From Crossiella sp. SN42 (GTDB lineage: Bacteria > Actinomycetota > Actinomycetes > Mycobacteriales > Pseudonocardiaceae), in the NCBI RefSeq assembly GCF_023897065.1, contig NZ_JAMHIV010000007.1, forward strand, positions 124,001 through 188,000: DNA of 64,000 nucleotides, written 5' to 3'. Shown here one piece after another: positions 48,605 to 59,960 of the stretch. How positions within the stretch are numbered: position 1 is the stretch's first letter; every line of letters starts with the position of its first letter. The notes beneath the pieces were generated by a model, which had not been told where the DNA came from, searched no databases, and was given only the letters and a program-made list of their open reading frames with translations. The translations under genes were made by a program, and so were the position numbers.

Positions 48605-49078
48605 CTAGGCGGGTGTGGACGCCGGGGGCTGAGCCGGGCGGAGCGGCTGGGAAACCCTGTCCGGGCGGGACGGGACGGCTGGGCGCAGGCCGAGGTCTTC
48701 GCCGGTGGCCCAGGTTGTTTCCAGGTACGGGCGGACGGCTTCCAGGTAGCGGCGCAGGACTTGGCGGGACGCTGGGTCGTAGGGGCTGCAGTTGATGCCG
48801 CCCTTGGCCCCGCCGAGCGGGAGGGACCGCGCGGCGGGGTCGTAGTTGAGGGCTTCCTTGGCGGTCATGCCGCGGGCCAGGGCCCGGACCTCGGACAGGG
48901 TGCAGCCTTCGCACGGGCGGAGGCCGCCGCTGCACACACCGCGAACCAGGCGGTCGATGACCAGGAAGCCGCGTTTGCCGGTGATCGGGTCGGTCCAGGT
49001 CAGTTCGAGTAAGGGAGCGCGATCATCACTGGCCTGCTTCCGCGCCGGGGCGGCCGACTGCTGGATGACATCGATCAT
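48605..49078 (-). pseudogene. Glu/Leu/Phe/Val dehydrogenase, N-terminal fragment only
   Basis: This 157-codon frame encodes the dimerisation/catalytic half of an amino-acid dehydrogenase: TWTDPITGKRGFLVIDRLVRGVCSGGLR, LARGMTAKEALNYDPAARSLPLGGAKGGINCSP (catalytic Lys region, GGAKGG) and RRYLEAVRPYLETTWATGEDLG. The NAD-binding C-terminal half (about 200 residues) is absent: the frame ends in an unrelated PSRPDRVSQPLRPAQPPASTPA tail and none of the downstream frames carry a Rossmann motif. It is therefore a truncated gene, most likely inactive. It lies upstream of the gene-free repeat patch and downstream of the thrS-like gene. Confidence 0.75.
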
Positions 49079-49090
49079 CGACCGGCGACG

Positions 49091-50314
49091 TCAACCGACG
49101 TCCTCCCAGAGCTCCGGGCTGTGCGCCCGCACCACCGCTTGCACCCTGCGCAAGCAGTCTTCCGCGGGCATGGCGTCCAGCCGACGGCCGTCACGCAGGC
49201 GCAGGGCGACCTGACCCTCGGCCGCCTCTCGCGCGCCGATCACCGCCTGGTACGGGGCTAGGCGGGCGGCGCGGATCCGGGCGCCGAGCGACCCCTCCCC
49301 CGGTTCCAGCACCTCCGCGCGCAGGCCGAGGTCGCGGCAGCGGCGCAGCAGCTTGGCGGCGGGCGGCTCCTCCTCCGGCGAGATGGGCAGGATCGCCAGC
49401 TGGCGCGGGGCCAGCCAGGGTGGGAAGGCGCCGCCGTGGCGTTCGATCAGGTGGGCCACCGCCCGCTCCACGCTGCCGATCACACTGCGGTGCACCATGA
49501 CCGGCCGGTGCCGTCCGCCGTCAGGGCCGATGTAGTGCAGGTCGAACCGCTCCGGTTGGTAGAAGTCGACCTGGACGGTGGACAGGGTGGACTCGCGGCC
49601 CGCGCTGTCCGCGATCTGGATGTCGATCTTGGGGCCGTAGAAGGCCGCTTCGCCTTCCACCGCCTCGTAGTCGATGCCCGCGGCGTCGAGGACCTCGCGC
49701 AGGATCGCGGCCGCGCGCTGCCACATGTCCGCCCCGGCGACGTACTTGCCGCCCGCGCCGGGCAGCGAGAGCCGGTAGCGGGCGTCCTGGATGTCCAGTG
49801 CGGCATAGGCTTTGCGGATCAGCTCCAGCGCGGCGGCCGCTTCCTCGGCGACCTGGTCCAGGGTGCAGAAGATGTGCGCGTCGTTGAGCTGGATGGCGCG
49901 CACCCTGGTCAGGCCGCCCAGCACGCCGGAGAGTTCCGCGCGGTACATGCCGCCGAGCTCGGCCAGCCGCAGCGGCAGCTCGCGGTAGCTGTGCGCGCGG
50001 GAGCGGTACATCAGCGCGTGATGTGGACAGAGGCTGGGGCGCAGCACCATCTTGTCACCGCCTAGATCCATGGGCGGGAACATGTCCTCGCGGTAGTGGT
50101 CCCAGTGCCCTGATCGTTCGTAGAGCTCGCGTTTGGCCAGCACCGGGGAGTAGACGTGCTGGTAGCCGGCGCGGAGCTCGGCGGAGCGGATGTACTCCTC
50201 CAGGCTGTGCCGGATCGCCGCGCCGTCGGGCAGCCAGTACGGCAGGCCCGCGCCGATCAGCGGGTCGGAGTCGAACAGGTTCAGCTCGCGGCCGAGCTTG
50301 CGGTGGTCAGGCAT
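49091..50314 (-). CDS. thrS: Truncated-type (editing-less) threonyl-tRNA synthetase
   Basis: This 407-residue class II synthetase consists of only the catalytic core and the anticodon-binding domain; the TGS and N2 editing domains of normal ThrRS (about 640-690 residues) are absent from the start. Core marks: GLPYWLPDGAAIRHSLEEYI (motif 1 region), PSLCPHHALMYRSRAHSYRELPLRLAELGGMYRAELSGVLGGLTRVRAIQLNDAHIFC (motif 2, zinc Cys and His) and VMVHRSVIGSVERAVAHLIER (zinc His, motif 3). The C-terminal HGTP domain has LPISPEEEPPAAKLLRRC and GARIRAARLAPYQAVIGAREA. A stand-alone copy suggests a regulated or resistance isoform. A leader peptide and hairpin precede it. Confidence 0.92.
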   Translation of the reverse strand: MPDHRKLGRELNLFDSDPLIGAGLPYWLPDGAAIRHSLEEYIRSAELRAGYQHVYSPVLAKRELYERSGHWDHYREDMFPPMDLGGDKMVLRPSLCPHHALMYRSRAHSYRELPLRLAELGGMYRAELSGVLGGLTRVRAIQLNDAHIFCTLDQVAEEAAAALELIRKAYAALDIQDARYRLSLPGAGGKYVAGADMWQRAAAILREVLDAAGIDYEAVEGEAAFYGPKIDIQIADSAGRESTLSTVQVDFYQPERFDLHYIGPDGGRHRPVMVHRSVIGSVERAVAHLIERHGGAFPPWLAPRQLAILPISPEEEPPAAKLLRRCRDLGLRAEVLEPGEGSLGARIRAARLAPYQAVIGAREAAEGQVALRLRDGRRLDAMPAEDCLRRVQAVVRAHSPELWEDVG

Positions 50315-50355
50315 CGTGGTCTCCTCGCAGGATGCGGAGAGCGGGTGACCACATG

Positions 50356-50389
50356 GCGAAGCCCCGGGGCACCCGCCCCGGGGCTTCGC
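50356..50389 (-). terminator. Attenuator hairpin in thrS leader
   Basis: GCGAAGCCCCGGGGC (50356-50370) and its exact complement GCCCCGGGGCTTCGC (50375-50389) form a 15-bp perfect stem with a 4-nt loop. It lies between the Thr-rich leader peptide and the thrS start. No run of T follows on the minus strand, as is common in actinobacteria. Confidence 0.85.
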
Positions 50390-50403
50390 GTCAAGTCATG
50401 CTG

Positions 50404-50454
50404 TCAGCGCGCCGGGACGTACTCCGGCGTCGTAGTCGCGTTGGCGCGCTGCAT
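50404..50454 (-). CDS. Threonine-rich leader peptide of the thrS attenuator
   Basis: ATG at 50454 opens MQRANATTTPEYVPAR and a stop. Three consecutive Thr codons (ACT ACG ACG) are at codons 7-9, as in leader-peptide attenuators that sense charged tRNA(Thr). A TACGGT -10-like element (50467-50462) is 7 nt upstream of the ATG, so the transcript is probably leaderless. The next feature on the transcript is the terminator hairpin, then thrS. Confidence 0.8.
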   Translation of the reverse strand: MQRANATTTPEYVPAR

Positions 50455-50477
50455 GTCGATCACCGTAGCAGACCGGC

Positions 50478-51086
50478 TCAGACCAGTGCGCCGAGTTTGT
50501 CCGCGCTGATGCCCAGCTCCCTGGCCACCGCCTCGTGCAGCCACCCGGTCAGGTCCTCCGGCCGGACCGTGCCCTGCCGCGCGACCAACTGCACCGCGAG
50601 GCCGTCCAGCAGCGAGGTCATCCGCCAGGCCGCGCCGCGCGGGTCGGGGCAGACGAACGTGCCCTCGGCCACGCCCTCATTGATCAGCTCCTCGACCGCT
50701 TCCCGCCAGCGCAGGTCCAGGTTCTGCGCGACCTTGCGCAGGTTGTCATCGTGCAGCGAGGCGGCCCAGCCCTCGATCCAGAGCACCCAGCCGGTGGCAT
50801 CGCCGGTGGGCGCGTAGAAGCGCAGCACCGCGGCGAGGCGGGACAGGGCGTTGCCGGCGGCACGCAGCTCGGCCAGGCGGGCCAGGTCGTGCTCGGCGGC
50901 GGCGGAGAAGGCCTCGGCGATCAGGTTCTCGATGGTGCCGAAGTGGTAGAAGACCAGCGCGGTGCTGATGCCCAGCGAGGCTGCGATGTCCGCCGGGCGT
51001 GTGGCAGCGATTCCCCTGGTGCGGATGTGTTCGATCGTCGCACGGAGGATGTCGTGGCGGCGTCCACCGTTCTGCCTGTTCGACAC
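50478..51086 (-). CDS. TetR-family regulator (BetI-like)
   Basis: This 202-residue regulator starts NRQNGGRRHDILRATIEHIRTRGIAATRPADIAASLGISTALVFYHFGTIENLIAEAFSAAAE. The C-terminal domain (FYAPTGDATGWVLWIEGWAASLHDDNLRKVAQNLDLRWREAVEELINEGVAEGTF) has the BetI-type TetR_C_6 pattern seen near transporters or catabolic genes. It is upstream of the thrS leader on the same strand; the leader promoter lies 11 nt past its stop, so no regulatory link is implied. Target unknown. Confidence 0.9.
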   Translation of the reverse strand: MSNRQNGGRRHDILRATIEHIRTRGIAATRPADIAASLGISTALVFYHFGTIENLIAEAFSAAAEHDLARLAELRAAGNALSRLAAVLRFYAPTGDATGWVLWIEGWAASLHDDNLRKVAQNLDLRWREAVEELINEGVAEGTFVCPDPRGAAWRMTSLLDGLAVQLVARQGTVRPEDLTGWLHEAVARELGISADKLGALV

Positions 51087-51148
51087 CTGATCACTCTAAC
51101 CGCTTTGGCCCAGGTCCTTGCGGGTTGGGGGTTAGGGTTCGTAAAGGG

Positions 51149-51195
51149 ATTATTTTCACTCGGCACTGAAGTTATCGGGAGGACGAAGCTTTTTG
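51149..51195 (+). repeat. AT-rich shared element, copy 2
   Basis: ATTATTTTCACTCGGCACTG, then AAGTTATCGGGAGGACGAAG. The ACTGAAGTTATCGGGAGGA part matches copy 1 at 47885-47905 with few differences. It also has a GGGAGG site before a TTG (51193). It lies in the 179-bp gap between the TetR gene and the eccD stop, and no convincing gene follows it. Confidence 0.5.
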
Positions 51196-51265
51196 CCACG
51201 AGGGAGGCGATGGCGGGACGAGCGGCGGGATGGGGCAGCGAAGCGTGACGCGGGCTGGGGCTGGG

Positions 51266-52639
51266 TCAGCCCACGGCGTCGCGGATTGCGTTGTAGATGC
51301 CGAGCACCGCACCCGCCAGCGGTACGACCGAGATCAGCAGCGTGTACTCCAGGGCGTCCAGCAGTCGCGCGCCCTGTGGCGAGTGCTTGCCGCGCACGAC
51401 GCGGGCGGCGTAGCTGATCGACACTCCCCCGCCGACCGCGACGGCCGCCGCGGTGGCCAGCAGCCACGGAACCGGCAGCGACCGGCTCAGCCAGACCGCG
51501 AGCACGCCGAGGCCGCCCAGTCCGGTGCTGATCACCGCGATCCGTTGCAGGGTGCCGGCGTAGGTGCGGGAGCGCAGCACCCAGGCCAGGCTGGTGACGC
51601 CGACCAGCAGGGCGGGCCACATCGAGTCGGACTTGGTCAGCACCACCGCGCAGCCCAGGACCACCGCGCCGAAGGCGGCCAGCAGGCCGGTGAGGATCTC
51701 CTCCGCGGCGGTGGTCTGGCCGAGGACGTCGGGGCCCAGTGCGGGTTTCTCGTCGGCGCGGAAGGACTTCATGTCGGCCGGGACCGTGGGCAGCGGCAGC
51801 CGGGCGAAGCGCAGCGCGATCATCGGGGCGGCCGCGCCGAGCGCGGTGACCAGCGGGAGGGTGACGGCGGCGGCGTGGCCGGGGTCGAAGTCGAACAGCA
51901 GCACCGTGGCGGCGGTGAGCGCGCCCAGGGCGGCCGCGATGGCCAGGGCGCCGAACCAGGCCAGGCGGTGGGCCAGCAGGACCGCGGCGATGGCGGCGTA
52001 GAGGGTCAGTGCGGCCAGGCCGAGGGCCAGGGACTCCGGGCGCAGCGGCAGCGGCTGGTGGGGCGGCAGCGCGGACATGCCGGCCAGCAGGGCGGGCAGG
52101 GCGCCGATGGCGGTGCAGGCGCTGCCCGCGCCCAGGTCGGTGTAGGCGCGGGTGAGCGCGCCGCCGATGAGCAGCAGGACCACCGCGAGCACGCCGGAGA
52201 CGATGGGGGCGAACAGGTTCCCGGTCAGTGCGGTGGTGGCCAGCAGGGCGGCGCCGCCGAGCAGGATGGCCGCGGCGGCCAGGCCGAGGACGCGGCCGAC
52301 CTGGGGTTGCCAGGCGCCGGAGCGGGCGGTGGCGGAGCTGGCGATGGCGTCCACGACGTCGTCGAAGAGCAGCGGGGTCTCGTAGCGCTCGCGCGGGTTG
52401 AGGTAGAGCACCTCGCCGTCGCGGACCGCGGCGGCGGCCACGGTCAGGCCGGGGGCCAGCGCGGCCTCGCCGAGCCGGGACAGGCCCCAGCCAGGACCCG
52501 CCCCGGTGGGCAGGTCCTGGGCGCCGGCCAGGCGGATGAGTTGGGGCACCAGCTCGGCGACCGTGCTGGCCATGGGCAGAGCGAGGTCCATCCGGGCGCG
52601 CGGGGTCACCACGGTGACCCGCCTGGCCGTCGGCGTCAT
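51266..52639 (-). CDS. eccD: Type VII secretion integral membrane protein EccD
   Basis: This is a 457-residue ESX component. Residues 6-80 are the YukD/ubiquitin-like domain (RRVTVVTPRARMDLALPMASTVAELVPQLI). About eleven hydrophobic helices follow from residue 115 (GRVLGLAAAAILLGGAALLATTAL and onward). EccD forms the vestibule of the inner-membrane pore with EccB and EccC. It is the distal gene of the left arm, 13 nt downstream of the YbaB-like gene. It is shorter and lacks the C-terminal extension of some mycobacterial EccDs but is otherwise typical. Confidence 0.92.
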   Translation of the reverse strand: MTPTARRVTVVTPRARMDLALPMASTVAELVPQLIRLAGAQDLPTGAGPGWGLSRLGEAALAPGLTVAAAAVRDGEVLYLNPRERYETPLLFDDVVDAIASSATARSGAWQPQVGRVLGLAAAAILLGGAALLATTALTGNLFAPIVSGVLAVVLLLIGGALTRAYTDLGAGSACTAIGALPALLAGMSALPPHQPLPLRPESLALGLAALTLYAAIAAVLLAHRLAWFGALAIAAALGALTAATVLLFDFDPGHAAAVTLPLVTALGAAAPMIALRFARLPLPTVPADMKSFRADEKPALGPDVLGQTTAAEEILTGLLAAFGAVVLGCAVVLTKSDSMWPALLVGVTSLAWVLRSRTYAGTLQRIAVISTGLGGLGVLAVWLSRSLPVPWLLATAAAVAVGGGVSISYAARVVRGKHSPQGARLLDALEYTLLISVVPLAGAVLGIYNAIRDAVG

Positions 52640-52652
52640 GCGAGTGTCCTTG

Positions 52653-53009
52653 TCAGAACTGGAAGTTCTCCGTGCGGGCGGCGGACTCGATCACCGGGGC
52701 GAACCGGGCCGTGCTGGCCTCGGCGACCCGGCGCAGGCCGTCGTTGACCGCCTCCGCGACGTGCTCGCCCAGTTCGCGGGCGTCGCTGCGGCGCAGTTGC
52801 TGCGGGTCGATGAGCACCTCGGTGACCCGGCCCGTGCCCTGCACGGTGACGGTGACCTCGTCGCGCTGGGAACGGCCCTGCACCAGCATGCTCTCCACGT
52901 TGCGCTGGATGCGCTCGATCTCCTCCTGCTGGCGGCGCACCCGTTCCAGGAGGTCGTCGACCTGGGGGATGTCGCCGCGGTCGAAGGCGGCAAAGGGATC
53001 GGGCTGCAT
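52653..53009 (-). CDS. YbaB/EbfC-like small protein in T7SS locus
   Basis: This 118-residue protein is of the YbaB nucleoid-associated fold: an amphipathic N-terminal coiled helix (VDDLLERVRRQQEEIERIQRNVESMLVQG), then RDEVTVTVQGTGRVTEVLIDPQQLRRSDARELGEHVAEAVNDGLRRVAEAS. EspL of mycobacterial ESX-1 and its relatives share this fold in the same locus type. It may serve as a chaperone or regulator of secretion substrates. It lies between eccD and the Toxin_44-like gene in one operon. Confidence 0.85.
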   Translation of the reverse strand: MQPDPFAAFDRGDIPQVDDLLERVRRQQEEIERIQRNVESMLVQGRSQRDEVTVTVQGTGRVTEVLIDPQQLRRSDARELGEHVAEAVNDGLRRVAEASTARFAPVIESAARTENFQF

Positions 53010-53030
53010 GTGACCGTCCTTTGTGGAGTG

Positions 53031-54128
53031 TTACGGGGTGATCGAGCCACGCTGGCGCAGCTCGTTCAGCCGGGTGGGGTCGGTGATGTACTGGCGGATC
53101 AGGTCCGGGGTCAGCTGCTCGGGCGGCACCTGGCGGAACAGCTGGATGCCCATCTCCACCGCGTACTGGTCGGCCGGGTCGGTCCAGTGCCCGCTGGCCA
53201 GGTCGGCTGCGTTGGCGCCCTGGTGCAGCTCGAAGCCGCTGAACCCGGCGGCGGAGCCGACGTAGCCGTAGTGCAGGTTGGACCAGAAGTCGTGCCGGAT
53301 CTTCAGGGTGGTGCCGTCGATGCCGGTCAGGAAACCGGTGTGCCGGTTCATGCCCATCAGCTGCCGGATCTCGCCCTTGTGGTCCCACGGCCCGCCCGGC
53401 CGGACCAGCCAGGTGAACAGGCCGAGGGCGTGGGTCTTGTCGCGGGTGCTGGTCAGGGGTTCCAGCAGCCCGCCCCAGCCTGGGTTGTTGAGCCGGTGCA
53501 GGCCGGCCGCGGTCTGGGAGCGGCCGTTGTAGCTCATCTCGTTGGTGATGTAGTCGACCAGCCGCTGGAACGGGGTGCGCGGGGGCGGTGCGGCGCCTGC
53601 GGGGAACAGCGCGGTGAGCTCGGCGCCGAGCTGGGCGACGATCTTGCGGGCGGCCAGCACCGCGACCTCGCCCATGGCGTTGGCGTGCACGAGGTACGGG
53701 CGCAGGTCGCCGTTGTAGATCGCGGCGGAGACCGACATGCGTTCGACGTTGCGGCCGCGTTCGGTGAAGTCGGCGAGCACCTTGTCCATGGCGGCGCGGG
53801 CCTTGCGCAGCACGGTCGCGGCCGCGCGCAGCTTCTCCGCCTGTTGCCGCAGCTGCTGTTCCTGACCGATGCGCAGGCCGGTGCTCCAGCGTTCCACCAG
53901 GGCGAGGAAGGCGGCGTAGGCGGGTCCGCGCCAGCCGCTGTTGGCCCGGCGCGCGGCTTCCAGGGTGGCACTGGCCACTGTGGACAGTCGGTCGGCGAGG
54001 CCGGTGAGGCGGGTCGCCTCTGCCTCCAGCGCGGCCGGGTTGCCGGTGACCACAACCTGGAACTGGCGCAGCGCGGCGGCGTAGCCGGCCAGCACGGCCG
54101 AGACCGGGCTGCCCACCGCGGTGGTCAT
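53031..54128 (-). CDS. Candidate T7SS effector: WXG-like N-terminus + Toxin_44-like C-terminus
   Basis: This 365-residue protein has a helical WXG100-like hairpin in residues about 10-130 (WRGPAYAAFLALVE at about 66). A C-terminal globular domain has LVRPGGPWDHKGEIRQLMGMNR (about 238-259) and RHDFWSNLHYGYVGSAAGFSGFELHQGANAADLAS (about 275-309). The pattern GGPWDxK followed by NxHYGYVG...AGF matches the polymorphic 'Bacterial toxin 44' family as I know it. It is not known with certainty what that family cleaves. Position in a T7SS operon makes it a probable exported effector. It overlaps its upstream neighbour by 4 nt. No separate immunity gene is obvious. Confidence 0.7.
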   Translation of the reverse strand: MTTAVGSPVSAVLAGYAAALRQFQVVVTGNPAALEAEATRLTGLADRLSTVASATLEAARRANSGWRGPAYAAFLALVERWSTGLRIGQEQQLRQQAEKLRAAATVLRKARAAMDKVLADFTERGRNVERMSVSAAIYNGDLRPYLVHANAMGEVAVLAARKIVAQLGAELTALFPAGAAPPPRTPFQRLVDYITNEMSYNGRSQTAAGLHRLNNPGWGGLLEPLTSTRDKTHALGLFTWLVRPGGPWDHKGEIRQLMGMNRHTGFLTGIDGTTLKIRHDFWSNLHYGYVGSAAGFSGFELHQGANAADLASGHWTDPADQYAVEMGIQLFRQVPPEQLTPDLIRQYITDPTRLNELRQRGSITP

Positions 54129-55093
54129 GCCGGCACCTTGCCGTCACCGTCGCCGTCGATCGCCACCTTGATCGGCGTGCCGCCGACGGTGGCGTTGACG
54201 ATGGTGTCCCGCCCCGAGGGCGCGGTCACCGTGGCACTGCCTTCGCCAGTGGTCACGGTGACGCTCACCCCGAACCCCGTACCGTGACCGCTGGGGGACG
54301 GCACGGGGTTCGGGATGCCGGGCGATGACGCGCTCGGGGCGGGAGTCGAGGGGTTCGGCGTGGCTGGGTCGACCGGGATCCACATGTTCTGCCCGTTGCC
54401 GGGCTGGGTGGCGCCGGGCTGCGCGCCGCCGAGGGCGGGCGGCTGGTACTGGGTGAAGTCCTTGGCGGGCAACGTGGTCGGCTGGGCGCCACCGGGCGCG
54501 GGGGCCGCGCCGTCCTTACCGGTGACCAGGCCGACCAGCTTCTCCAGCTGGCCCAGCACCTCGGCCATGGTGGTCAGCTTCGCGGCCAGCTCCACCGCGC
54601 CCAGGGACTTCAGCAGCGCGCCGAGCGCGGCCAGGAAGCCCTTCAGCGCACCGCTGGTGGCGGTGGACAGGGCGACCGCGGCGGCGTAGGTCCACGGGTT
54701 GGACATCAGCCCGGCCACGGTCGGGTTGATCGCGGCGACGATGGTCTTGAAGGCCAGCTGGGCCTTCTGGATGATCGAGGCGGCCAGGCCGAGCTTCTGC
54801 GCGACCTCCTTCACCACCGAGATGATCTTGGTGAAGGACTCCAGCAAGTTGGTGATCTTCTTGCCCGCCGCGCCGGAGGCCGGGCCGCGCCAGACCTTGC
54901 GCAGCTGCTCCCCCGCCTGCCTGAGCTGCTGGTAGAGCTGGGCGAACTCGTTGGCCTTGGCCAGCAGGTCGGTGACGTGCTTGAGGATCTGGCCGGGGTT
55001 GCCGTTGATGATCCAGTTGAGGAAGGTGCCGGGCCCGCCGCCCTTGGCGGTGACGTCCATGGCGGCGCTGACGGGGAAGGCCATCGCGGTCAC
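54125..55093 (-). CDS. WXG100-like T7SS substrate with Pro-rich tail
   Basis: This 322-residue protein has GTG start 55093 (GGAG-ATCCGC spacing 6 nt). The N-terminal WXG-like region carries VWRGPASGAAGKKI near residue 66. Long amphipathic helices follow (KLGLAASIIQKAQLAFKTIVAAI; YAAAVALSTATSGALKGFLAALGALLKSLGAVEL), reminiscent of PPE/ LXG-type helical bundles. The last 110 residues are Pro/Ser/Gly-rich and end in a beta-like segment (SVTVTTGEGSATVTAPSGRDTIVNA). Probably exported and possibly surface displayed. ATGA overlap with the Toxin_44-like gene suggests a coupled pair. Confidence 0.72.
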   Translation of the reverse strand: MTAMAFPVSAAMDVTAKGGGPGTFLNWIINGNPGQILKHVTDLLAKANEFAQLYQQLRQAGEQLRKVWRGPASGAAGKKITNLLESFTKIISVVKEVAQKLGLAASIIQKAQLAFKTIVAAINPTVAGLMSNPWTYAAAVALSTATSGALKGFLAALGALLKSLGAVELAAKLTTMAEVLGQLEKLVGLVTGKDGAAPAPGGAQPTTLPAKDFTQYQPPALGGAQPGATQPGNGQNMWIPVDPATPNPSTPAPSASSPGIPNPVPSPSGHGTGFGVSVTVTTGEGSATVTAPSGRDTIVNATVGGTPIKVAIDGDGDGKVPA

Positions 55094-55118
55094 GCGGATC
55101 TCCTCTGCTCGGCCGGCG

Positions 55119-55874
55119 TCAGGACGCCGAGATCGGGCGGTACACCCGGGTGTCGGCGAGTCCGGTGAAGCTGGGCCGCACCAGGCCGTTGTTGTAGAGC
55201 TGCCCGCGCTCGCCGGCCACCGCCACCACCGGGTCGCGGTCGAAGGCCAGCACCACGATGTCACCGGCGCGGACGCCGCCCGGCACGTCACCGAGGTCGC
55301 GGGCCAGCCCGGCGTAGACGCCGATCACCCCGGCCCGCTGCTGGTTGCCTGCCTCGGTGTCCAGCCAGCGGGCGAAGGCCACCGGGTCGGTGAAGGAGCG
55401 CTCGCCCAGGTCGCTTATCCCGGCGGTGCGCAGGTAGCCGAGCACGTTGTCCACCGAGGCGGGCTGGGCCGCGCCGGAGAGGCTGGCACCGGTCGCGGCG
55501 GCGGCCAGCCTCTCGGCATTCGGCGAACTCCACAGGGTGGAGGACACCGCGGCCAGTTCCGACTGCCTGCCGGCGTAGACGTCGGCGATGCGCCGGTCGT
55601 GGTCCTGGTAGGTGTCGGCGACCTTGCGCACGTTGTCGTTGAACTCCTGCAACAGCGAGAGCAGCGTGTTCAGCGAGCTGACCTGGGTGGCCTCCAGCTT
55701 GGCGTTCATCGCGCCGACCGCGGCGCCGAGGGCGGAGAAGTCCGAGGGGTTCACCCGCATCGAGCGCAGCGCGCCGACCGCGTTGGCCGCCTGCATGATG
55801 ATGCCGCTGAGGTTGCCGGCCACCGACCGCATCTCCTCGGGGCTGGCGTCGAACCCTGGCAGGCTCACGGCCAT
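55119..55874 (-). CDS. EspC-like/ESX-associated helical protein
   Basis: This 251-residue protein is predominantly helical at the N-terminus (SPEEMRSVAGNLSGIIMQAANAVGALRSMRVNPSDFSALGAAVGAMNAKLEATQVSSLNTLLSLLQEFNDNVRKVADTYQDHDRRIADVYAG), an ESX substrate-like hairpin of the EspC/DUF2580 type. The C-terminal part (DNVLGYLRTAGISDLGERSFTDPVAFARWLDTEAGNQQ; RAGDIVVLAFDRDPVVAVAG) is a separate domain that I do not recognise. It is first in the left arm, divergent from eccC with 99 nt between. A secretion role is inferred from its location. Confidence 0.65.
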   Translation of the reverse strand: MAVSLPGFDASPEEMRSVAGNLSGIIMQAANAVGALRSMRVNPSDFSALGAAVGAMNAKLEATQVSSLNTLLSLLQEFNDNVRKVADTYQDHDRRIADVYAGRQSELAAVSSTLWSSPNAERLAAAATGASLSGAAQPASVDNVLGYLRTAGISDLGERSFTDPVAFARWLDTEAGNQQRAGVIGVYAGLARDLGDVPGGVRAGDIVVLAFDRDPVVAVAGERGQLYNNGLVRPSFTGLADTRVYRPISAS

Positions 55875-55973
55875 CTCACCCTCCCACCTCGCCGGTCATG
55901 TGCTCCCCAGCGAGAGTAGGAGCCCCGGCTCCGCGCACGGACGGCAAAAGTACCCACCAGCGCGCGGGCCGAA

Positions 55974-58900
55974 GTGACCAGAATCGGCTGGGTGCAGACC
56001 GCGCGGAAGAGCCGACGGGTCCCCGAGCCGCCCGCGGGGGAGATCACCCTGCAGTCCCCGCCCATGCTGGCCAAGGGCGGCAACCAGGGCATGATGGGCC
56101 TGCTGTTCATGCTGCCGATGATGCTGGGCATGGGCGCGATGTCCTTCGTCTACATCGGACGCGGCGGCGGGGTGATGACCTACGTCTTCGGCGGCCTGTT
56201 CGTGGTGGTGATGATCGGCATGATCGTCATGTCGCTGGCCCAGGGACGCTCGCAGAACAAGGCCAAGATCAACGAGGAGCGGCGGGACTACCAGCAGTAC
56301 CTGGCCAACCTGCGCAGACAGGTCCGCGAGGTGGCCGCCGCCCAGCGCGCCCACCTGCTCGACTCCCATCCCGAACCGGCCGACCTGTGGACCTTCGCCG
56401 AGGGCGACCGGCTGTGGGAACGGCGGCGCTCGGCGACCTCCTTCGGGCAGCTGCGCGCCGGGCGCGGGCCGCAGCGGCTGGCCACTCCCCTGCGCGCGCC
56501 GCAGACGGTGCCCCTTGAAGAGCTGGACCCGGTGTCCTCGACCTCGTTGCGGCACTTCATCCGCGCCTACGCCACCGTGCCGGACCTGCCGGTGTCGGTG
56601 TCGCTGCGCTCCTTCGCCCGGATCGGGGTCAGCGGGCCGCGCGCGGTGGTGCTGGACCTGGCGCGGGCGCTGCTGGCCCAGGCGGCGCTGTTCCACTCCC
56701 CCGCCGACCTGCGGATCGCGGTCTGCGTGGCCGCGGACCGGCGCGCGGACTGGGAGTGGGTGAAGTGGCTGCCGCACGCCCAGGACGCCACCGCCGCGGA
56801 CGCGGTCGGCCCGGCCCGCCTGGTCGCCGGGGACCTGACCACGCTGGCCGACCTGCTGGGCAACGACCTCGGTGACCGGCCGCCGTTCACCAGGCGGGCC
56901 GGGATGGGCTACGACGCCCCGCACATCCTGCTCGTGGTCGACGGCGGGCGCACCTACGGCGACCCTCGGCTGGCCCCGGTGGGCGGGCAGCACGGGGTCA
57001 CGGTGCTGGACGTCGGCCACGAGGTGCCCATCGACACCCCCGGCACGGAAAGCCTGCGGCTGCACGTCTCGCCGCAGCGGATGGGCATGGTCACCGGCGA
57101 GGGCGCGGAGTCCAGGGTGGCCTACCTCGGCGAGCCCGACGGGCTCTCCACCGCCGCGGCCGAGGCCCTGGCCAGGGCGCTGACCCCGCGTTTCCACGGG
57201 GTGGCCGCGCCCTCGGAGGCGCCGGTGAGCGCCACCTTCGGCCTGGCCGGGCTGCTCGGGCTGGGTGATCCGCGCGATGTGGACCCGGAGGTCACCTGGC
57301 GGCCGCGCACCCCGCGCGAGCGGCTGCGGCTGCCGCTGGGCCTGGATCCGGAGGGCAGGCCGGTGGAGCTGGACCTCAAGGAGTCCGCGGAGAACGGCAT
57401 GGGACCGCACGGGCTGGTGGTCGGCGCGACCGGCTCCGGCAAGAGCGAGCTGCTGCGCACCCTGGTCACCGGGCTGGCGGTGACCCACTCCTCGGAGACG
57501 CTGAACCTGGCGCTGATCGACTTCAAGGGCGGGGCGACCTTCGCCGGGATGACCGGGCTGCCGCACACCTGCGCGGTGATCACCAACCTCTCCGACGACC
57601 TCACCCTGGTCGACCGGATGGCCGACGCGCTCAACGGTGAGATGCTGCGCCGCCAGGAGTTGTTGCGCGCGGCCGGGAACTTCGCCTCGGTCCGGGACTA
57701 CGAGCGGGCCAGGGAGAACGGCGCGCCGCTGGCTCCGTTGCCCTCGCTGCTGCTGATCATCGACGAGTTCAGCGAGCTGCTCTCCAGCCGCCCGGAGTTC
57801 GTGGACCTGTTCGTCATGATCGGCCGGCTGGGCCGCAGCCTCGCGGTGCACCTGCTGCTGGCCTCGCAACGCCTGGAGGAGGGCCGGTTGCGCGGGCTGG
57901 AGGCGCACCTGTCCTACCGGATCGGGCTGCGCACCTTCTCCGCCGCGGAGAGCCGCACCGTGCTCGGCGTGCCCGATGCCTACCACCTGCCCGCGATCCC
58001 CGGCTCGGCCTACCTCAAGAGCGACACCGAGACGCTGCAACGGTTCAAGGCCGCCTACGTCTCCGGCGACCTGCCGCCGAGGGAGTCCGGCAGCAGCGGC
58101 GAGACCACCGCGCCCGGCCGCCAGGTGCTGCCGTACTCCTTGGAACGAGTGGAGATCGTCGAACCGGTGCGGGCCGAAGCGGCCGAGGCCGTGCCGGCCG
58201 CCACCGGGGAGACGATCATGGGCGCGATGATCGACCGGCTGATCGGCAAGGGCCCGGACGCGCACCAGATCTGGCTGCCGCCACTGGACGAGCCGCCCAC
58301 CTTGGACCACCTGCTGCCGCCGCTGGGCGCCGATCCCGAGCGTGGCCTGTCCCCGATCGGCTGGGGCGGCAACGGCAAGCTCACCGTGCCACTGGCCATT
58401 GTGGACAAACCCTTCGAGCAGCGCCGCGACCTGATGTGGGCCGACCTGGCCGGTGCGGGCGGGCACGTGCTGCTGGTGGGCGCGCCGCAGAGCGGCAAGA
58501 GCACCTTCCTGCGCAGCCTGATCGGCGTGCTGGCGCTGACCCACACGCCGGTGGAGGTGCAGTTCTTCCTGCTGGACATGGGCGGTGGCGCGCTCGGCCC
58601 GGTGGCCGGGCTGCCGCACGTCAGCGGCTACGCGGTGCGCCGCGACGCCGACTCCTGCCGCCGGATGGTCGCCGAGCTGTCCACCCTGCTGGCCGAGCGG
58701 GAGGCGCTGTTCGCCCGGCACGCGGTGGACTCCATGGCCACCTTCCGCCAGCGCCGCAAGGAGATCCAGGAGAGCGAGCTCGGCGACCGGGAGTTCGGCG
58801 ACGTGTTCCTGGTGGTGGACGGCTGGACCACGGTGCGCGAGGAGTACGAGCAGCTGGAGGAGTCGATCACCCGGCTGGCCGCCAGGGGCCTGGGTTTCGG

Positions 58901-59960
58901 CATCCACGTGGTGATCGCGGCCAACTACTGGATGGCGGTACGGCCGCCGCTGCGGGACTCCATCAGCACCCGCTACGAGCTGCGGCTGGGCGATCCCAGC
59001 GACTCCGCCATCGACCGCCGCGCCGCCCAGAACGTGCCCGCCGGCACCCCGGGCCGCGGACTGACCCCGGACAAGCTGCACTTCCTCGGCGCGCTCCCCC
59101 GCATCGACGGCGCCCAGTTCGCCGAGTCGGTGACCGCGGGCACCGCCGACCTGGTCGAGAAGATCACCGCCGCCTGGCCCGGATCCGTTGCGCCACAGGT
59201 GCGTCTGCTCCCCCACGAGTTCCCGGCCAGCGATCTGCCTGCCCCGCAACAGCATCCGGGCAAGCAGGTGCCCTTCGGCATCGCCGAGAACGACCTGTCG
59301 CCGGTGTTCCTGGACTTCCAGACCGAACCGCACTTCCTGGCCTTCAGCGACGTCGAAGGCGGGAAATCGGGGCTGCTGCGCACCATCGCCAACGGCATCA
59401 TGGCCCGCTACACCCCCGAGGAAGCCGCGATCCTGGTGGTGGACTACCGGCGTGGCATGCTCGGCGCGGTCGACGGCCCGCACCTGCTGGGCTACGCCGG
59501 CAGCGCCCCGGTGCTGGACGGGCTGCTCGCTGAAGTGGTGCAGGCGATGCGCGCCCGGCTGCCTGGCCCCGAGGTCACCCCGGACCAGCTGCGCCGCCGG
59601 GACTGGTGGACAGGCCCTGATCTTTTTGTGCTGGTCGACGACTACGAGCTCGTCGCCACCGCGGGCGGCACCACGCACCCGCTGCTGCAACTGGTCGAGT
59701 TCCTGCCCCAGGCAAGGGACATCGGCCTGCACCTCGTGGTGGCCAGGGGCAGCGGCGGCGCGGCGCGCGGCATCTACGACCCGGTGCTGATGCGCATCAA
59801 GGAGCTCGGCTCCCCCGGCCTGGTCATGTCCGGCTCGCGCGATGAAGGCGTGCTGCTGGGCGATGTCCGCTGTTCCCCCCAGCCGCCCGGCCGGGGCCAG
59901 CTGGTGTCCCGGCGGCACGGCAACCAGCTCGTCCAGGTCGCCTGGACACCGGGCAGCTGA
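55974..59960 (+). CDS. eccC: Type VII secretion ATPase EccC (fused Ca/Cb)
   Basis: This 1328-residue FtsK/SpoIIIE-type motor has two N-terminal helices (about residues 40-62 and 67-89) and three tandem ATPase domains. D1 has Walker A GATGSGKSELLR (about 484) and LALIDFKGGATFAGM, with Walker B SLLLIIDEFSELL. D2 has GAPQSGKSTFLRS (about 836) and VFLVVDGWTTV. D3 has the degenerate EGGKSGLLRT (about 1125) and ILVVDYRRGML. As in other EccC proteins, D1 is the active motor and D2/D3 bind substrate signals. GTG start at 55974. It is followed by the WXG100 pair after a separate promoter. Confidence 0.94.
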   Translation: MTRIGWVQTARKSRRVPEPPAGEITLQSPPMLAKGGNQGMMGLLFMLPMMLGMGAMSFVYIGRGGGVMTYVFGGLFVVVMIGMIVMSLAQGRSQNKAKINEERRDYQQYLANLRRQVREVAAAQRAHLLDSHPEPADLWTFAEGDRLWERRRSATSFGQLRAGRGPQRLATPLRAPQTVPLEELDPVSSTSLRHFIRAYATVPDLPVSVSLRSFARIGVSGPRAVVLDLARALLAQAALFHSPADLRIAVCVAADRRADWEWVKWLPHAQDATAADAVGPARLVAGDLTTLADLLGNDLGDRPPFTRRAGMGYDAPHILLVVDGGRTYGDPRLAPVGGQHGVTVLDVGHEVPIDTPGTESLRLHVSPQRMGMVTGEGAESRVAYLGEPDGLSTAAAEALARALTPRFHGVAAPSEAPVSATFGLAGLLGLGDPRDVDPEVTWRPRTPRERLRLPLGLDPEGRPVELDLKESAENGMGPHGLVVGATGSGKSELLRTLVTGLAVTHSSETLNLALIDFKGGATFAGMTGLPHTCAVITNLSDDLTLVDRMADALNGEMLRRQELLRAAGNFASVRDYERARENGAPLAPLPSLLLIIDEFSELLSSRPEFVDLFVMIGRLGRSLAVHLLLASQRLEEGRLRGLEAHLSYRIGLRTFSAAESRTVLGVPDAYHLPAIPGSAYLKSDTETLQRFKAAYVSGDLPPRESGSSGETTAPGRQVLPYSLERVEIVEPVRAEAAEAVPAATGETIMGAMIDRLIGKGPDAHQIWLPPLDEPPTLDHLLPPLGADPERGLSPIGWGGNGKLTVPLAIVDKPFEQRRDLMWADLAGAGGHVLLVGAPQSGKSTFLRSLIGVLALTHTPVEVQFFLLDMGGGALGPVAGLPHVSGYAVRRDADSCRRMVAELSTLLAEREALFARHAVDSMATFRQRRKEIQESELGDREFGDVFLVVDGWTTVREEYEQLEESITRLAARGLGFGIHVVIAANYWMAVRPPLRDSISTRYELRLGDPSDSAIDRRAAQNVPAGTPGRGLTPDKLHFLGALPRIDGAQFAESVTAGTADLVEKITAAWPGSVAPQVRLLPHEFPASDLPAPQQHPGKQVPFGIAENDLSPVFLDFQTEPHFLAFSDVEGGKSGLLRTIANGIMARYTPEEAAILVVDYRRGMLGAVDGPHLLGYAGSAPVLDGLLAEVVQAMRARLPGPEVTPDQLRRRDWWTGPDLFVLVDDYELVATAGGTTHPLLQLVEFLPQARDIGLHLVVARGSGGAARGIYDPVLMRIKELGSPGLVMSGSRDEGVLLGDVRCSPQPPGRGQLVSRRHGNQLVQVAWTPGS

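Follow-up and report, generated by a model that had tools for sequence, protein, structure and literature searches.

A conserved threonine leader peptide and a covarying RNA hairpin in front of an editing-less threonyl-tRNA synthetase gene of Crossiella suggest ribosome-mediated attenuation

The window analyzed here, a stretch of 64,000 nucleotides from the soil actinomycete Crossiella sp. SN42, carries on its minus strand a gene for a short threonyl-tRNA synthetase (ThrRS), in front of which lie a small predicted reading frame (thrL), a putative promoter and an exact hairpin:

50494..50500 (-): ACAAACT, a weakly matching copy of the conserved A-rich, WblC-like box
50462..50467 (-): putative -10 element TACGGT (within TGCTACGGT), beginning 13 nt before the thrL ATG
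50404..50454 (-): predicted leader frame thrL, 16 codons, MQRANATTTPEYVPAR followed by the stop; ATG at 50454, TGA ending at 50404
50436-50428 (-): consecutive Thr codons of thrL, ACT ACG ACG, read from the sequence
50356..50389 (-): helix A, a 15-bp exact hairpin; arms 50389-50375 and 50370-50356, loop GGGU at 50374-50371
50321..50326 (-): Shine-Dalgarno (SD) sequence GAGGAG of the short thrS, read from the sequence
49091..50314 (-): short ThrRS of 407 aa, consisting of just the catalytic and the anticodon-binding domain; ATG at 50314

The 16-codon frame with three consecutive Thr codons and the 15-bp hairpin had both been reported in a first-pass annotation of this DNA and were recovered here, the frame to the base (50454-50404, with ACT ACG ACG) and the hairpin with all 15 pairs exact (50389-50356). 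The predicted fold of the RNA stretch 50460-50310 has an energy of -83.8 kcal/mol (z = -5.55), and none of 200 shuffled sequences folded as low. A T-box riboswitch or another Rfam family was rejected because the whole window gave no Rfam match at the gathering score.

Upstream of thrL, a TetR-family gene with a BetI-type C-terminal domain (50478-51086, minus strand; stop codon 50480-50478) ends 23 nt before the thrL ATG, and the A-rich promoter box is located within its last codons. Immediately after the short thrS comes a gene (48605-49078, minus strand) for no more than the dimerisation half of a Glu/Leu/Phe/Val dehydrogenase (PF02812), whose product showed no match to the NAD domain. Both were dismissed as conserved operon partners: each was found in 7 of 176 loci, all 7 from the window's own genome or genus, although the flanks of many of the 176 loci are short and absence elsewhere is indicative only. 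Farther away, the large frames at 51266-59960 resemble a type VII secretion locus, judging by eye from the translations, with an FtsK/EccC-like ATPase (55974-59960) and an EccD-like membrane protein (51266-52639).

In the 407-aa protein, Pfam detects only the catalytic core (residues 86-293) and the anticodon-binding domain (305-392), and the match to TIGR00418 (442 bits; cut-off 383.65) begins at profile position 172 of 565. By both Pfam and TIGR00418, the TGS and editing (tRNA_SAD) domains are absent, as the first-pass annotation had claimed; a full-length thrS elsewhere in the genome, the search for which it had proposed, is present on another contig (G000:C11) as a 690-aa frame with tRNA_SAD and 42% identity over the shared part. 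The closest named relative among the best 80 of 296 loci is Crossiella sp. S99.2 (87%), and the nearest solved relative of the short enzyme is the Staphylococcus aureus ThrRS (1nyq), with 398.8 bits. The score against the full-length ThrRS of the same cell, obtained in a separate search, is lower (306.6 bits), which hints that the short thrS is of other origin than the housekeeping gene.

The E. coli numbering of residues in the short ThrRS was assigned by motif. Residue counts refer to 153 close rows; these contain duplicates, and 29 of the loci were retrieved via the leader pattern. The zinc ligands C96, H147 and H275 and the motif 2 arginine R125 are present in all 153 rows, and by these residues (Cys, His, His; motif 2 Arg) the short protein qualifies in sequence as having the class II core of a bacterial ThrRS. 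The equivalent of Met332 is Ser in 151 of the 153 rows and that of Asn333 is Leu in 152, the full-length enzymes having Met and Asn at these positions in 14 of 14 cases; the equivalent of Leu489 is Gln in 150 of 153, a residue that 5 of the 14 full-length enzymes share. Positions that contact borrelidin include human M411 and L567, the latter corresponding to E. coli L489, according to passages of PMC4389257; the match of human M411 to E. coli Met332 is our own. From these substitutions, borrelidin resistance of the short ThrRS appears possible. ObaO, the obafluorin immunity protein, is also a second ThrRS and resists via Gly463 to Ser (as stated in part of PMC11252418); the window type keeps Gly, and resistance of the ObaO type (Gly463 to Ser or Ala) was rejected given the Gly in 153 of 153 rows.

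Homologues were gathered by the ThrRS protein alone, as the best 80 of 296 loci and a second set of 30, the window among them, drawn from 249 family genomes, with at least five organisms common to the two sets. The comparison demonstrates both the leader and its Thr codons: a complete TTTP leader lies upstream of 104 of the 110 loci (window included), that is, 75 of the 80 and 29 of the 30. Among the six that depart, L012 has no leader, L081 has the codons without a start, L046 is frameshifted, and L017, L064 and L105 read ATTP, TTR and TTTR, respectively. Within the 249 family genomes, the matches listed comprise 44 close short ThrRS genes (at least 65% identity) and 6 divergent ones (50-54%), beyond which more distant short ThrRS genes may exist; in front of each of the 50 lies a leader with two or more Thr in succession, which takes the form TTTP in 48, the other two being TTTR (L105) and VTTP (L144). 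Leaders of the divergent clade keep only the core TTTP (MRLMQLTTTPGATRRSSV, MSFIQSVTTTPDTLRRIV, MRLAQHTTTPDPLRR, MRFVQQTTTPEPLRR and similar), and TTTP is found as well in the leaders of further divergent homologues (MKFRQQVTTTPDTLRRIV, MNKAVVTTTPENIPAP).

The leader appears to be specific for the short gene. Where genomes that also hold a short thrS were searched over 206-362 nt before the full-length thrS, a TTT leader occurred in 0 of 14, and a Thr leader as a feature of full-length thrS was rejected on this account. Of 394 genomes of the class, 55 contain the VPAR-type leader pattern, each a single time, and 29 of the 30 sites retrieved precede a short ThrRS, the remaining one (L137) lying at a contig end; since the exact pattern is single in each of the 55 genomes, occurrence of the motif at other genes was rejected, too. 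Judging from these comparisons, the presence of a leader with a Thr run in front of the short thrS is not a matter of chance.

Codon usage was compiled for 116 distinct leaders picked by TTTP, in which the identity of the Thr residues is thus given by construction. The first Thr codon is ACG in 102, ACT in 7 and ACC in 7, the second is ACG in 113 and ACC in 3, and the third is ACG in all 116. The codon that precedes the run varies freely among many amino acids, and the synonymous sites past the run are frozen (Val GTC in 102 of 103, Pro CCG in 116 of 116 and 109 of 109, Ala GCG in 108 of 108), as expected if the leader RNA pairs.

The comparison also fixes the position of the promoter. Counted from the leader ATG, a TANNNT element begins at -13 in 82, at -12 in 13 and at -16 in 2 of 97 distinct loci, and it is preceded by T and G in 82% and 94% of 95 loci. 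This spacing supports a leaderless thrL transcript that would start at or beside the leader ATG, as had been suspected from the window sequence, and the thrL of Streptomyces lividans is itself reported as leaderless (in part of PMC8079986). Approximately 28-33 nt upstream of the -10 element lies a conserved A-rich box (A-rich columns -32 to -29), which across 95 loci has the form GAAAWY in 33 and AAAWY in 44, the window copy being a deviating one. In promoters of the WblC design, GAAAWY is located 3 nt upstream of the -35 element (passages of PMC7157823), and the thrL promoter resembles this design, its A-rich box being situated where it would be expected. The same passages of PMC7157823 list thrS2 of Streptomyces coelicolor as activated by WblC and place wblC itself under the control of an upstream reading frame. 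SCO3778 is named a threonyl tRNA synthetase in part of PMC10771440; we take it to be thrS2 and of the short type, so that S. coelicolor thrS2 is probably the orthologue of the window's short thrS. To the extent that this orthology holds, the WblC activation lends outside support to the back-up role that the first-pass annotation had suggested for the enzyme.

These observations on promoter design, on thrS2 and on wblC also fit an explanation in which the gene responds to WblC and general translation stress only, with a leader that passively reports slow ribosomes and not Thr-tRNA. Such an explanation appears unlikely, given that the run consists of Thr in every clade seen while the adjacent codons drift.

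Statistics on the RNA helices were obtained for 73 of the 104 leaders, with 23 near-duplicates and 8 leaders with long spacers left out. In addition to helix A, four pairings were considered:

50340..50377 (-): helix B, GGCGGGUG at 50377-50370 (top of A and loop) with CACCCGCU at 50347-50340, from covariation
50316..50352 (-): putative helix C, GUGGUC at 50352-50347 with GACCAC at 50321-50316, over the SD, from covariation that is moderate only
50405..50451 (-): predicted helix D, the default, CAGCGCGCC at 50451-50443 with GGCGCGCUG at 50413-50405, from fold and alignment
50375..50418 (-): helix E, a candidate anti-hairpin, leader tail GUCCCGG at 50418-50412 with the 5' arm of A, CCGGGGC at 50381-50375

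Comparison clearly brings out helices A and B. For helix A, 95.1% of the cells are paired, against 74.9% for the best slid pairing, and there are 43 both-side changes against 9.5 in shuffled data; together with the TTTP leaders of the homologous loci, this is the conservation of Thr codons and hairpin on which the first-pass annotation had made its reading depend. In its general form, helix B joins GGCGAGUG, from the top of A and its loop, to CACUCGCC, located ahead of the SD; it is paired in 94.2% of the cells (best slid 58.3%), with 30 both-side cells against 10.0 in shuffled data, the loop of A and its partner changing jointly (GAGU/ACUC, GGGU/ACCC, GGAU/AUCC, AGGU/ACCU). Kinship was taken into account by means of contrasts on supported branches of a FastTree tree built from 78 rows of ThrRS proteins. 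There were 5 independent contrasts for the second loop position (averaging 4.7 with the partner, 0.0 against it and 0.3 without change), 3 for the third (1.4, 0.0 and 1.6, respectively) and 6 for the fourth (3.6, 0.5 and 1.9), and in a sign test on these contrasts no loop position reaches 0.05. In 7 divergent loci, a B-type duplex is formed by other letters at -8.5 to -21.6 kcal/mol between matched segments, compared with -7.4 and -7.0 kcal/mol in the two exchanges made between L158 and the window; the segments were chosen by eye. Taken as a whole, helix B is a well-supported RNA contact.

For helix C, 83.7% of the cells are paired (best slid 66.4%), with 14 both-side cells against 7.7 in shuffled data (2 of 500 shuffles as high), and the count of pairs with both-side changes is unexceptional (158 of 500 shuffles). 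The inner part of helix D has the conserved form CGCCGG (50429-50424) with CCGGCG (50415-50410), from which the window's own fold differs inside; pairing of the two leader ends gave a permutation z of -3.6, and a compensated case, CAGUGC/GCACUG, was found in Micromonospora (L083). Helix E, with about -19 to -21 kcal/mol in the window, is nearly invariant, so that the covariation test has no power (z -1.4), and swaps between clades were mixed, one foreign pair reaching -20.7 against -16.6 kcal/mol for the own pair and the other -12.8 against -21.3 kcal/mol.

Conservation of nucleotides in the leader tail and the hairpin exceeds the coding need, and the three Thr codons might accordingly be a by-product of a protein- or ligand-binding RNA element whose frame is not read. 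This explanation is highly improbable in our view: the start, frame, stop and promoter-to-ATG spacing are all kept, the divergent clade retains TTTP with other flanks, and Thr codons 1 and 2 are situated outside every helix with conservation between loci (some of their bases are paired locally in the minimum-energy fold of the window sequence).

We consider it quite probable that thrL acts as a ribosome-mediated attenuator in front of a gene for an auxiliary ThrRS that lacks editing; in general terms, the leader and the competing hairpins most likely switch on the spare ThrRS when charged tRNA-Thr is short. RNA polymerase would start at the thrL ATG. With ample Thr-tRNA, the ribosome would reach the stop codon and cover the leader tail, hairpin A would form and expression would be low. 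With Thr-tRNA in short supply, the ribosome would stall on the three Thr codons; the exposed tail GUCCCGG could then form helix E with the 5' arm of A, so that A would be delayed or prevented and the gene expressed. The distances involved agree with classical attenuation: judging from the size of the ribosome footprint, a ribosome with any of the Thr codons in its A-site should leave GUCCCGG about free, and one at the stop codon should cover it. Without leader translation, helix D would hide the tail and A would form. After read-through, the loop of A could pair with the segment beside the SD (helix B) in competition with helix C, and through this competition over the ribosome site control may go on at the level of translation.

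Attenuation in response to uncharged tRNA-Thr, the central proposal of the first-pass annotation, is thus well supported by comparison; termination at the hairpin and resistance to borrelidin, which it had also brought up, are conjectural. There is no U-tract after hairpin A in the window, and a terminator scan of 48900-51200 found none; in a set of 139 loci with the hairpin motif, some of them duplicates, the longest T run within 10 nt after the motif is at most 2 in 120 and at least 4 in 6. An intrinsic terminator with a U-tract was therefore rejected, the GC-rich hairpin being present and the U-tract absent in the window; control may be exerted either on termination or on translation.

Predicted energies bear on the proposed switch. 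The tests covered 57 of 73 loci for the A and E states and the ribosome site, and 55 of 72 for the SD alone. The A state has the lower energy in 55 of the 57 loci, with means of -58.6 for A and -47.9 kcal/mol for E, and is on average 10.7 kcal/mol more stable, so that a switch by helix E can only be kinetic. Helix B lies downstream of A and hence cannot prevent A during transcription; it would act after read-through. When E was forced in place of A, the accessibility of the ribosome site increased in 19 and decreased in 18 of 57 loci (overall from 0.340 to 0.351), that of the start region increased in 23 and decreased in 19 of 57 (0.399 versus 0.441), and that of the SD alone increased in 6 and decreased in 7 of 55 (overall from 0.254 to 0.234). 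Release of the SD by helix E, as predicted with RNAfold, was rejected after two tests without overall effect. In the absence of an average gain in ribosome-site accessibility, the translational arm stays hypothetical. At the window locus itself, forcing E raised the accessibility of the start region from 0.43 to 0.83 and lowered helix C from 0.65 to 0.16.

A special case of this attenuator would be purely translational: A would be no terminator at all, and stalling would allow B to form, freeing the ribosome site from C. The absence of a U-tract after A is consistent with this version, and so are the strong covariation of B, which by its position downstream of A is no transcriptional antiterminator of A, and the conservation of helix C around the SD. 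Moreover, part of the divergent clade (L158, L160, L161) has a GGUUCAC whose complement lies across the presumed GUG start, and forcing E raises the loop:segment pairing in 26 of 57 loci, lowering C in 19 and raising it in 5. Against it, forcing E brings no overall rise in the predicted accessibility of the ribosome site, the start region or the SD, and we regard a purely translational mechanism as a possibility on the doubtful side. Similarly tentative is an extension of the attenuator to a relay of five helices (D, E, A, B, C), each excluding the next, with D, A and C in the off state and E and B in the on state; in such a relay, one ribosome stalled on the leader would govern not only read-through at A but also, via pairing of the A loop with the SD-side segment, translation of the same mRNA. 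It is also possible that A and a shorter B coexist as a pseudoknot.

A parallel is offered by another auxiliary synthetase: TrpRS1 (trpS) of S. coelicolor is, reportedly from the work of Vecchione and Sello, subject to ribosome-mediated attenuation, and trpS is, like the window gene, a second synthetase gene under a leader peptide. It differs in the amino acid and in that inhibitor resistance, namely to indolmycin, is reported for TrpRS1 (part of PMC9437257); trpS (SCO3334), too, is listed as WblC-activated in the passages of PMC7157823. In Actinobacteria, Seliverstov et al. (2005; passages of PMC1262725) described attenuators of leuS, trpS and trp, which share leader peptides and competing hairpins with the window, and the LEU element, which also involves a pseudoknot and SD pairing; unlike in the window, the Leu codons of this element themselves pair with the SD. 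For the threonine operons of Actinobacteria, the same passages report no conserved structure. ThrRS T2 of Anabaena is, similarly to the window enzyme, a second, editing-poor and stress-induced ThrRS, with editing in trans by the other ThrRS there, but it is controlled by Zur at low zinc and retains a damaged editing domain; the passages of PMC4787780, on which this comparison draws, mention no leader peptide.

The closest precedent is thrL of S. lividans TK24 (SLIV_19412, leader MKRVRPFLETTPGFVPAR and stop), which is listed upstream of thrS (SLIV_19410) in part of PMC8079986. Like the window frame, it is leaderless, is followed by one hairpin without a uridine-rich sequence and precedes a thrS; it differs in having two Thr codons, and these passages of PMC8079986 contain neither a comparison nor alternative helices for it. 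From the peptide and the gene order, SLIV_19410 would be a short-type thrS. In the literature searched, outside of which lie most subscription journals, this was the only paper found on thrL before thrS in Streptomyces, in keeping with the earlier impression that such a leader is rarely described, and we found no description of the wide conservation, helix B or the link to an editing-less ThrRS. Thus, the attenuator class and the S. lividans thrL are known; the wide conservation, helix B, the weaker helix C and the editing-less link are new.

If the proposed model is correct, Crossiella, Streptomyces, Nocardia, Jiangella and Micromonospora share a single threonine-sensing switch for a spare ThrRS, and this spare enzyme without proofreading is probably part of the antibiotic-response (WblC) regulon as well. 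In that case, thrL could serve as a defined reporter of Thr-tRNA charging and of ThrRS inhibitors, and the question would arise how cells afford a ThrRS that is itself unable to clear Ser-tRNA-Thr. Three short-thrS loci of Streptomyces in which the leader is lost or damaged (L012, L046, L081) offer natural test cases of a changed regulation.
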